Shown here: positions 12,199 to 16,100 of the stretch, piece after piece
Numbering within the stretch: position 1 is the first letter of the stretch
How the letters are laid out: every line of letters begins with the position of its first letter
Assembly: GCF_019649055.1 (NCBI RefSeq)
Contig: NW_026570254.1
Coordinates: forward strand, 620,001-684,000
From: Paramacrobiotus metropolitanus
Lineage: Eukaryota > Tardigrada > Eutardigrada > Parachela > Macrobiotidae
DNA: 64,000 nt
Direction of reading: 5' to 3'
Translations under genes and position numbers: made by a program
Notes under the pieces: generated by a model
Told to the model about the DNA's origin: nothing
What the model saw: only the letters and a program-made list of their open reading frames with translations
The model's database searches: none

Positions 12199-12867
12199 TT
12201 TTCACTCGAGGATCACTAGACCGCAAGAAACAAAACCTTCATTTCAAAGCAAAAACACTACAGATACAAAACCCGGAAGTACAGCATTCAAAAATTAACT
12301 AATTAATTAATTAATTTACGAAAATAGCCTTAAATTTCAGCAAGTTTTGATCATACATGGTAGATTACTTACTATACAATTGTACAGACTTCCGATCTGT
12401 AACTACTTAACAGTAAAAGTCTGTAACTACTGTCTGCACAGATCTAGATAGACAAGACAGGCTAGTGTGCTTTCCTTTCAAAAATTCTTGTAACAGGAAA
12501 TGCTAGTCGCTAGAATTCCTGACGAGCTTCCTTAAATCAAAATAAGATTGGGAACAGTCCAGCTATACTCACAAACATCCAAAGACGAAGTTCCCAGATG
12601 GTCACAGCCAGGCAAAAATGATTTCAAGCGGCGTTTTTGTTAGTACTATCCAGGCTATTTTAAGGTTTAAACTAAGAGGAAAGATTGTTGTGCTTTTGAT
12701 GGTCAATGATGGATAACACAAAACTGATATTCACAAGCCGCCAGGAGTTCCGATTGTCTCGAACATGTCCGATTCACTTCCAATTCCAAAACTGCTGACA
12801 AGACACGATCATTCATGCCATGTCTCGTCGATCTCTTGTCACTCTCGAGCAATTAAAAATTAAGTAC
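12199..12867. other. Intergenic region 5' of the CHHC gene
   Basis: No exon or repeat is supported. The last 13 bases (12855-12867) are the left target-site duplication of the adjacent retroelement. Confidence 0.4.
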
Positions 12868-13166
12868 TAGCGGTGGTTGCGAACCACATTATTTCACGAG
12901 CGCGAGCGTCCGTACCACTGGGAAGTGGTATTGGGATTGTGGAACTGGAAAGCGTGACGTATCTGTACGCTCTTCGTGGCGTCAGACAAATTTTATGCTC
13001 TTGACGAAGACTTTTTTATTCTTACATTCAGTTCACACAATGATTTCACAGTAACTTCAAACACGATCACATTAAGCATCAGTCGACAAAGGCGGCCTAA
13101 TCACAGAGAAAATTTGGTCTAAATTTGAAGACTTATTGCAGCACCTCGCGCTTCGCGCTCGGTGCA
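12868..13166 (+). mobile_element. Non-autonomous retroelement (head plus tail only) with target-site duplication
   Basis: The element starts TAGCGGTGGTTGCGAACCAC and ends in the stem-loop GCACCTCGCGCTTCGCGCTC GGTGC plus As. It is flanked by the identical 13-mer AAAAATTAAGTAC at 12855-12867 and 13167-13179. Its first ~90 bp and its tail are the same as the two ends of the longer reverse-transcriptase element at 13217-15081, so it is an internally deleted derivative mobilised by that family. The head holds two hairpins: GTGGTT-GCG-AACCAC and TACCAC-TGGGA-AGTGGTA. A 113-bp insertion interrupts the tail. Confidence 0.75.
13014..13134. mobile_element. Insertion within the element tail, 8-bp duplication
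   Basis: GAAGACTT occurs at 13006-13013 and again at 13127-13134, with 113 bp between. The longer copy has a single GAAGACTT at the same place (about 15039-15046) and no insert. This is the pattern of a small insertion with an 8-bp target duplication. No terminal inverted repeats are evident. Confidence 0.55.
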
Positions 13167-13216
13167 AAAAATTAAGTACGAGTATCTAAGTTTGCGCACA
13201 GTGGCATAATCGTAAC

Positions 13217-15081
13217 TAGCGGTGGTTGCGAACCACACTATTGCACGAGCGCCGATACCACTGGGAAATGGTATTGGGGTTGTGTAATTGGAAAAGCGTG
13301 ACGTACGATCTTAGTCACTGTTCATCGACGACCACGTTCTATCATCCGAATCCGGTGTACAGCAGGGGGATCCATTGGGACCGCTACTATTTTGCCTCGC
13401 ATTGCAATCAGTTATTGCCTCCCTGGATACCGAGCTAAACGCTTGGTACCTTGACGATGGGACGTTGGGCGGGCTTCCTAGTAGTGTACTTGAGAATTTT
13501 GACCGCGTCATCGAAAGAGCACGGGCGACTGGCCTGGAAATTAACGTCGGAAAGTGCGAATTATACGTTGCAGGCGGTTCTGAGATTACAGCAAGAGGCA
13601 ATTACCAATTTTCTTTCAAGGCATCCGGGAATCCGCGTCATGTGCAGCACTAATTTAACGCTTCTAGGAGCCCCTGTGCTGGACGACGCGATTGCCCCTG
13701 TATTTGCCGAGAAAGCGAAGTCGCTGACCGCGGTATGCGAAAGAATGAAATTGCTTCCCGTCACCACGCCTTATTCCTTTTAAGGCACTGTCTCGGAGCA
13801 CCGAAAATCATTTACATGTTGCGGTGTTGCAACGCCTGGAAATATCCTGAGCAATTGTACCAAATCGATGAAGTATTGCGGTCTTGTTTCCAGCTTCTAT
13901 GTAATGTCCGGACAAATCACGATGATTATCCCAGTTGGCGGCAAGCAAGTCTCCCGGTTAGCAGAGGAGGCATTGGTCTACGTCGATCGGAGGAATTAGC
14001 ACTCCCAGCCTTCCTGGCTTCGATTCACTCCGTCGGCGACCTGGTGTCTTTGTTGCTTCCCAGTCGAGAGACTTCAGACATTACCGTTGCTCTAGAAATG
14101 TGGAAGGCAAAGCCCGTTTAACAGAACTGCCCGTTCCAGAATTCCGCAATTCCCAGAAGGCATGGGATTTGCCATTGTGTAATGTATCTCTGGCTGCCCT
14201 GCTAGAAGTATACCGGGATGATGAAATTAATAAGGCGCGTCTGCTTGCCCAGTCGAGACCAGAAGCCGGCATTTGGCTCAACGCGTTGCCTTCCGCCCAT
14301 ATAGGTAACCTCCTCGATGACGATACTCTGAAAATCTCAGTAGGCCTCAGACTCGGCGCCAGGATTTGTGAACCTCACAACTGCACGAAATGTTTAAAGC
14401 CGGTCGACGGATACGCTCATCATGGTCTTTCCTGTACCTTCTCCGCCGGCAGACACCCAAGACATGGTGGCCTTAACAGTATCGTATGTCGGGCTTTTGT
14501 ATCAGCCGGAATCCCAGCTAAACTTGAACCCCGAGGCACTTCCCACACCAACGAACGACGCCCCGATGGCTGCACAACGTTCGCCTGGCAGCGAGGAATG
14601 TGCTTGGCATGGGATGTCACCTGCGTGGATACTGTTGCCGCTTCCCACATCAAATCTACTTCGGCAATTGCGGGATCGGCCGCGTTGCAGGCTGAAGAGA
14701 AGAAGTCTAGGTTCTATTCTTATTTAAACGGCCGCTATATATTCACACCTATCGCTTTTGAAACTATGGGCCCGTGGGGACCAGCGGCCATTGCCATCAT
14801 AAAAGAACTGGGGAAAAGATTACGTTCTCATTCAGGAGAAGCCCGCTCGCACGAATTTCTTCGACAACGTTTGTCCATAGAGATACAGCGTGGTAATGCG
14901 GTTTCTGTTTTGGGCACGGTGGAGAAAGCCGAAATGTTTAACGAGCTGTTGTTTTTGTAACTGTTTCTCTAACACGTGTTTAAGTGATGGTTTGAAATAA
15001 AATGCGACCCGGCGTCAGACAAATTTTATGCTCTTGACGAAGACTTATTGCAGCACCTCGCGCTTCGCGCTCGGTGCAAAA
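13217..15081 (+). mobile_element. Non-LTR-type retroelement copy with conserved hairpin ends
   Basis: Its head (TAGCGGTGGTTGCGAACCAC, then a TACCACTGGGAAATGGTA hairpin and GCGTGACGT) matches the start of the short copy at 12868. Its tail, 15011-15081 (GGCGTCAGACAAATTTTATG through the GCACC...GGTGC stem-loop), matches the short copy's tail. In between is a reverse transcriptase with a C-terminal nuclease-like domain. There is little sequence between head and catalytic domain, so the copy is 5'-truncated or internally deleted. No matching target duplication was seen around it. Confidence 0.75.
13315..14960 (+). pseudogene. Reverse transcriptase with PD-(D/E)XK-like C-terminal domain, frameshifted
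   Basis: The reading opens with FIDDHVLSSESGVQQGDPLG and continues to the catalytic motif YLDDGT, as in retroelement reverse transcriptases. The frame changes about three times (near 13600-13640, near 13783 and near 14100), so no intact protein is possible. The last 286-codon frame has a Cys/His cluster (CTKC, then HH and C) followed by GRHPRHGGLN, then RPDG (about 14559) and WDVTCVD. That order, a zinc-knuckle-like cluster then RPD...D, is typical of the restriction-like endonuclease C-terminus of site-selecting non-LTR elements. The N-terminal part of the polyprotein is missing. A related family is widespread in invertebrate genomes; I cannot assign a clade name. Confidence 0.8.
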
Positions 15082-16100
15082 TATGATACTGTAGCGATAG
15101 TATTTGTACGAACGATAAGACCGCCCAGTTATGATTCATTCCATCGCGTTATGAATTAATGTGTCCACTTTACCGGCTAGTTTCCCTTCTCATGACTTTC
15201 TAGAATTCAGTCTTGTGCTCAGCTTGCTACAGCTTGCATCTACTTGATTGTTTCTCTTGCTGAAACCTTGCTTACAAACTTGCTGTGTTCTTGATTCCCT
15301 TGTCATTAAACATGCCTTGAGTTACGTTGTTGCTTTTGACCGCTTGGGATGAACTAGCGTCATCCCAATCGGAGCCACCTGTGTAATTGCGTTACATCTG
15401 TAAGAGCGTCCTCGGCCAGCATCGTTGCCGGCCGTGCCACCTTTCACACCAACAGCCGTTTAATCGTGGTAAAGGCTGATCGCCACCCCACTAGAACAGT
15501 AGCCAGATAGGCCACTGTTACAATACAGTACTTTACCCTACGTACAGTATGTAACAGCTGTCCACTGTTTACTTTATTTAGCCGCAACCCAATCACGATC
15601 CGAGAATATTTATATTTCGTTAGCAAAAGCCATTTTTGATTAACAGATATCGATCAAAGCTGTGTGCATAATGACATTGCATTGTATCAGCTTGGCTGTC
15701 GGTTAAGCTTTGGCTTAAGTTAAGTTTAAGTTAAGTTTTCTTAAGTCAAGTTCGGTAAAGTTTTCTGCATTGTGTCAGTCGGCAATGTTTTGGCTTTTTC
15801 GAGTTTTTCCCCAAGAATAAATCTACCACTTTCTTCGCTGTTCGTAAATGGTGTGCAAAGGTCGTCAGCCTGCGTCTCCGACTGGTGGAGATGTGATACA
15901 TGATTCAGCACGACATCATGGTGCAATTTATTTCATAATTACTTCGGATAATAATTTTACTCAAACGCAGACAAATCAGATTGCAAAAGACCAGTCAACA
16001 GTAACAAATCGAACGTAACAACGTCGCAAAACTGCGTTGCCGATCACATAGGGACTGTAGGGGGTCAAGGTAATCAAAAAGCGTACAAAAAGGAACAAAA
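15082..16100. other. Intergenic region downstream of the retroelement
   Basis: No supported gene. A short repeat of TTAAGT/CTTAAG units lies at about 15700-15750. The right end is the 3' flank of the NOAH/NompA-like gene. Confidence 0.4.

Follow-up and report, generated by a model that had tools for sequence, protein, structure and literature searches.

The two repeats lying side by side in the window (the whole stretch of 64,000 bp that was analysed, C34:620001-684000, from the tardigrade Paramacrobiotus metropolitanus) are almost certainly non-autonomous, internally deleted Helitron2-like rolling-circle transposons, inserted on the minus strand and mobilised in trans by the Rep-helicase that a full-size Helitron encodes. 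The Helitron2-like assignment was made from the ends, the inverted repeat, the Rep/PIF1 domains and the insertion sites. The first repeat (copy 1, 12866-13167, minus strand) was recognised by genome search and alignment to a 176-bp element as a copy of this type with a nested insert, and the second (copy 2, 13215-15079), 47 bp from copy 1, is split by part of a LINE. The sequence-only reading had described the pair as a non-LTR retroelement and its derivative, a class that is contradicted by the Rep and PIF1 domains of a full-size element on C37 and by the lack of any duplication at six empty sites. What had been taken for a 'retroelement with defined head and tail' is spurious, and in its place stands a well-supported Helitron family, for which one genome offers a full-size copy, several derivative size classes, a target rule and empty sites. 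The family is new; the Helitron2 arrangement itself was already known.

By analogy with known Helitrons, a full-size element with the same termini, such as the one at C37:852123-860416, would supply the Rep-helicase in trans. Rep would nick at the 5' end, and a single strand would be copied and displaced. The end of the element would be marked by the 3' hairpin together with base pairing between the repeat arms, and the copy would be joined into a host site at TWNT^.

Element ends and the full-size partner

The genome (169.8 Mb, 533 contigs) was searched for the short element with window positions 12864-13169 as query, giving 80 rows (best 40 of 378 candidates scored). A pattern search of the genome with up to 3 mismatches found 118 heads and 145 tails (the head being the 3' end and the tail the 5' end of the element in the minus-strand reading), and the same end patterns read backwards, used as a control, gave 0 matches. 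Pairing was based on the 100 heads and 100 tails that were listed; 56 listed heads found a partner among the listed tails, at a spacing of 130-148 bp in 52 cases, the exceptions being 195 (C33), 265 (window copy 1), 976 (C2) and 1,828 bp (window copy 2). The fetched short loci contained 72 tails, 16 of which had no head inside the fetched stretch. Four of these (L046, L047, L048 and L053), the ones that were traced far upstream, all had their 3' end 0.55-8.3 kb away. L041 and one copy at L043 were dropped as candidate head-less copies, since they merely have no head in a short fetched stretch and could be long elements.

The head and tail common to both window copies (repeat families D1-D4) are 85-98% identical, and the three hairpins named by the sequence-only reading are all present on the plus strand: GTGGTT-GCG-AACCAC (12873-12887), TACCACT...AGTGGTA (12913-12930) and GCACC...GGTGC (13141-13165). 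In 56 both-ended copies the plus-strand reading is ACTAGCGG...GGTGCAA; read on the minus strand, the element starts TTGCACCGAGCGCGAAGCGCGAGGTGC and ends AATGTGGTT-NNN-AACCACCGCTAGT. The minus-strand anatomy is that of a 5' hairpin holding one arm of an inverted repeat, a second arm just inside the 3' hairpin, and then CTAG. In copy 1, the Helitron 5'-terminal hairpin (GCACC..GCGC-TTC-GCGC..GGTGC, 13141-13165, minus strand; DNA fold -9.7 kcal/mol, z -1.93) together with 13166-13167 contains the 5' arm TTGCACCGAGCGCGA of the asymmetric inverted repeat. The 3' arm (12892-12905, minus strand) is imperfect in this copy, intact as TCGCGCTCGGTGCAA in the full-size C37 copy, and one base short in family A. 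The 3'-terminal hairpin, GTGGTT-CGC-AACCAC in the minus reading (12873-12887, minus strand; DNA fold -4.4 kcal/mol, z -1.32), is followed by CGCTAGT. The folding scores of the hairpins are modest (z -0.99 to -1.93), and among the listed head letters the changes in the hairpin are mostly one-sided. Recognition by the transposition machinery is very probably through the hairpin ends, as the sequence-only reading had proposed. Its further suggestion that the head could be a self-cleaving RNA (HDV-like or hammerhead) was abandoned: Rfam gave no match, ribozymes included, in window 12700-15200 (E up to 5), and none in 20 loci (E up to 2).

The genome contained 79 Helitron_like_N matches, one of which, on C37, lay 4.5 kb from a listed tail. 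The element at this place could be followed from end to end (C37:852123-860416, 8,294 bp). Its ends comprise a 27-nt 5' end identical to that of the short element, the arms TTGCACCGAGCGCGA and TCGCGCTCGGTGCAA, the 3' hairpin and CTAGT; the first 15 bases are complementary to the arm just inside the 3' hairpin, with TTGCACCGAGCGCGA at position 1 and the complementary arm stopping 26 bp from the 3' end. Two ORFs, 905 and 463 aa long, matched Helitron_like_N (PF14214, E 1.5e-32), DUF6570 and PIF1 (PF05970, E 6.3e-24), and two further ORFs had no Pfam match. Strings present in a C37 ORF, 'PHVHG' and 'KYAAKYASK', are what we take to be the HUH and Y2 motifs of Rep. The Rep ORF, compared with solved structures, hit no PDB chain at E 0.01. 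Since Rep and helicase are read in two different frames, this C37 copy may be inactive. Three more elements (554, 1,141 and 1,800 bp) have both ends, and similarity between C37 and the short family's 5' part continues past the hairpin (GTCAAGAGC.TAAAATTTGTCTGACGCCA), as fits an internally deleted derivative of a C37-type element. The sequence-only reading was right to see in the short element an internally deleted form of something larger, with both ends retained; the larger element is of this C37 type and not the neighbouring reverse-transcriptase copy.

Target sites and the flanking 13-mer

Flank statistics were taken from the 56 both-ended copies found by pattern in the window and in the fetched loci up to L080. 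Host positions +1 and +4 of the right flank were A in all 56, and the full ANWA was found in 52, compared with 5.1% of positions in a 127-kb pool from the same genome; in the minus-strand reading the target is TWNT^. The right flanks of window copy 1 (AAAA) and copy 2 (AATA) both fit ANWA. The first base of the element is an A, as is the host base at this place, which leaves the boundary ambiguous by one base.

Empty sites were sought with the joined flanks of 31 and then 18 sites, the best 40 candidates being scored each time, and paralogous sites were found for 4 of the 31 (L012, L033, L070 and L021) and 4 of the 18 (L034, L064, L065 and C37). Six of these (L012, L033, L070, L034, L065 and C37) lack the element cleanly, with neither duplication nor loss, and differ at the junction only as expected of diverged paralogues; L064 was left out as unreadable. 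For C37 the empty site is a single paralogue, whose similarity spans about 17 bp on one side and 34 bp on the other. Insertion without target-site duplication at TWNT^ was thus observed at five short-copy sites and at C37, the window copy not being among them. An IS200/605-like single-strand transposase, suggested by an NTAC left flank and the end hairpins, was rejected, because the empty sites show the AC to belong to the element and because there is a Helitron partner.

Copy 1 is flanked by an exact 13-nt direct repeat, AAAAATTAAGTAC (12855-12867 and 13167-13179, plus strand; repeat family D6), which the sequence-only reading had taken for a target-site duplication. The repeat stands; its interpretation probably does not. 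Flanking direct repeats scoring at least 10 occur in 3 of the 56 copies, namely window copy 1, L076 and L074. In a first scoring these reached 13, 14 and 11, respectively, and a control with re-paired flanks 11 or more in 0 of 3,080 cases, against which a duplication looked real; among 4,000 host ANWA sites (127 kb), in a scoring that differs slightly from the former in the allowed offsets, 2.3% scored at least 10, so that 1.3 such cases are expected per 56, against which it did not. The host-site control was preferred because it keeps local host repeats. On this ground the 13-mer is read, with some doubt, as a repeat that was probably present before insertion; the joined-flank search (best 40 candidates scored) found no empty site for copy 1. 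If the 13-mer was there beforehand, an allele without copy 1 should read AAAATTAAGTAAAATTAAGT, and if it is a true duplication, a single AAAATTAAGT. In AT-rich DNA, as this case shows, direct repeats on the two sides of an insertion can pass for a target-site duplication.

A Helitron-like element with two modes of insertion, one usual and free of duplication, the other occasional and producing 7-19 bp of it, the window copy representing the second mode, is improbable. The exact 13-nt repeat and the similar ones in L076 and L074 speak for it, as do the CRe elements of Chlamydomonas, Helitron2 elements some of which are reported to have duplications of about 7-19 bp (PMC3627910, in the portion available). 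Against it stand the frequency of such repeats at host ANWA sites, the flanks of L076, which continue as a degenerate tandem array, and the fruitless search for an empty site of the window copy.

One paralogue comparison gave a different picture. At L021 the 5' hairpin end is kept, the 3' end is absent, and about 140 bp of the host is missing. Copies with other end points would, by the terms of the sequence-only reading, count against it, and there is at least one, this copy without head. It fits a one-ended insertion, though a retroposition-like process could also explain it. One-ended copies have been reported for Chlamydomonas Helitron2, but those described in the available part of that report are 5'-truncated (PMC3627910). 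As a side observation, the head-less copy at L021 (C9:104618-105840) interrupts a multi-copy gene, the missing stretch being part of this gene. The protein of the gene (HWIALYQEQAGKMEMFDSYGKT) may resemble the adenovirus-type protease of Polintons.

Sequences nested in the two copies

Copy 1 totals 302 bp, with a 176-bp element and a nested insert of 113 bp. Elsewhere in the genome, query positions 1-153 join 264-306 directly (short-element search, best 40 of 378 candidates scored), and the middle of the window copy is therefore an extra insert (13014-13126, minus strand). An 8-bp duplication, GAAGACTT, flanks it at 13006-13013 and 13127-13134, and the short-element search placed it at one other genomic position, C5:708004-708116 (L080), with the same length and 97% identity. 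The 0.3-kb element of the sequence-only reading has the repeated ends ascribed to it and is not a single unit. As its minus-strand reading ends AATAAAAAA, the insert is probably a retroposed fragment, possibly a small retroposon; in the proposed history it would be a bystander insertion.

Copy 2 consists of a 3' part with the 3' hairpin and 3' arm (13215-13312, minus strand; shared-repeat families D1 and D4), a nested 5'-truncated LINE ending about AATAAAATGCGAC (13311-15010, plus strand), and a 5' part with the 5' hairpin (15011-15079, minus strand; families D2 and D3). The LINE splits the copy at about 13312/15011, the junctions being uncertain by 2-3 bases, and with the LINE removed the outer parts align to the 176-bp element, a few bases differing at the junction. 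The reverse-transcriptase part of the LINE (13315-13653) matched RVT_1 (Pfam, E 2.4e-8) and contains LDDG; the coding frame is broken. The C-terminal ORF had no Pfam match, and this part presumably resembles a restriction-like endonuclease.

Used as a genome query, the 1.9-kb copy gave 45 rows (best 40 of 731 candidates scored). One is the query itself, 3 are pieces of copy 1, and the other 41 lie elsewhere. These 41 are all confined to query positions 101-1798, which is the LINE part, and none reaches head or tail. A script search of 24 fetched LINE loci (L037-L040 and L081-L100) found no tail, and one head was seen, about 0.7 kb upstream of the LINE at L037 and on the opposite strand. There are 39 other LINE copies among the best 40 of the 731 candidates, with identity down to about 70%; two, at L037 and L038, are 99.6% identical to the window LINE, over 13311-15008 and 13311-15006, respectively. 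Three LINE copies, set against the window LINE and against one another, have different 5' start points, and the 3' end, where readable, is mostly AATAAA plus a few bases. Because LINE rows elsewhere are without the ends and the outer parts align to the 176-bp element, copy 2 is a short element split by a LINE, and the reverse transcriptase is an unrelated LINE fragment that inserted into it. In the proposed history it would be a bystander, a 5'-truncated LINE having jumped into copy 2.

The LINE bears on two further readings. A SINE whose 5' head is conserved and which is moved, through target-primed reverse transcription, by a LINE with the same stem-loop tail, the adjacent reverse-transcriptase copy being that LINE, would account for the fixed tail with its A-rich end, the 13-bp repeat flanking the window copy and at least one head-less copy. 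It is nevertheless very unlikely, as the tail is found in none of the 41 rows of the window LINE (best 40 of 731 scored) and in none of the 24 fetched LINE loci, the ends form a Helitron2 inverted repeat, and target-site duplications, expected in most copies, give way to the 3 repeats of at least 10 in 56 copies, with 1.3 expected from host sites. The reading was dropped on the six readable empty sites, which are free of duplication, and on the 8.3-kb element with the same two ends, whose Rep-helicase contradicts it strongly. That the 1.9-kb copy is autonomous and gave rise, by deletion of all but head and tail, to the short element, as the sequence-only reading held from ends that the two do indeed have in common 47 bp apart, can practically be dismissed, a spacing of this size being unique to the window copy among the paired listed copies and the LINE occurring elsewhere without the ends and with differing 5' truncation points. 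The case shows how nested insertions can imitate an autonomous/non-autonomous pair.

Known Helitron groups and neighbouring copies

The comparison with known groups follows the cited papers as far as their available excerpts go. In Helitron2 (Bao and Jurka 2013, PMC3627910) hairpins are likewise present at both ends, and the short asymmetric inverted repeat has its 5' arm within the 5' hairpin and its 3' arm just upstream of the 3' hairpin. In the layout described, the 5' arm lies 0-2 bp and the 3' arm about 20-30 bp from the respective end (PMC3627910, PMC5148889). The 5' T, a Rep-helicase partner and the lack of duplication, as in Helitron-1N1_CRe, are also shared, whereas the target is TWNT^ here and TTTT^ in Chlamydomonas, and the 3' end here is CTAG(T) (PMC3627910). 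The Helitron2 features found in the present family are the asymmetric repeat (one base short in family A), both hairpins (with modest z) and Rep plus PIF1 (in two frames). FoHeli1/2 of Fusarium oxysporum have an inverted repeat and a hairpin at both ends as well, and their target, TNAT^ followed by A or T, is near TWNT^, with the same one-base ambiguity of the boundary; they differ in their terminal sequences (TCAG...ATTTT) and in a 3' hairpin that lies farther from the 3' end (PMC5148889). Helentrons and HINE/DINE-1 (PMC4067079) resemble the present family in short non-autonomous derivatives, subterminal inverted repeats, a 3' palindrome and no target modification. Helentrons differ in their TT target, against TWNT^ here. 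They also carry an endonuclease domain (PMC4067079); Pfam showed none in the four ORFs tested from C37, although the frame there is broken. Canonical Helitron1 shares the 3' CTRR (here CTAG), the 3' hairpin and the lack of duplication, but here the 5' end is TT(T)GC and not TC, the hairpin lies 2 nt and not 10-12 nt from CTAG, and a 5' hairpin and an asymmetric inverted repeat are present (PMC5148889).

Close copies in the same orientation were seen in the window pair (47 bp), on C20 (three in a row), on C25 (6 bp) and on C2 (one of them without the terminal hairpin). Their spacers, of about 6-50 bp, are unlike one another (L001, C20:1216451-1217070; L052, C25:649900-650630; L061, C2:3675150-3676600; window 12866-15079). 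An exact pattern search found same-orientation pairs within 60 bp at three places (C20, C25 and C34) and no 3'-facing pairs; a search for 5'-facing pairs, made with a pattern that was too short, gave 13 distinct places, the control giving 2. One opposite-orientation pair, on C329, is now separated by other DNA. New copies might preferentially insert no more than about 50 bp from a resident one and in its orientation, directed by Rep or by the resident ends, a suggestion that we regard as doubtful; if insertion were directed in this way, the neighbour pairs whose spacers are unlike (those of the window, C25 and C2 and two on C20) would be its product. A comparable closeness is recorded in the available part of the Fusarium account, where one FoHeli4 is reported 2 bp from another (PMC5148889).

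Two further loci gave side observations. At L035 (C117:173836-175060) one copy ends in several consecutive repeats of the 3' hairpin region. The flanks of L068 (C231:7350-7980) and L069 (C259:41660-42290) are 98% alike, and the assembly may for this reason hold some allelic contigs twice.
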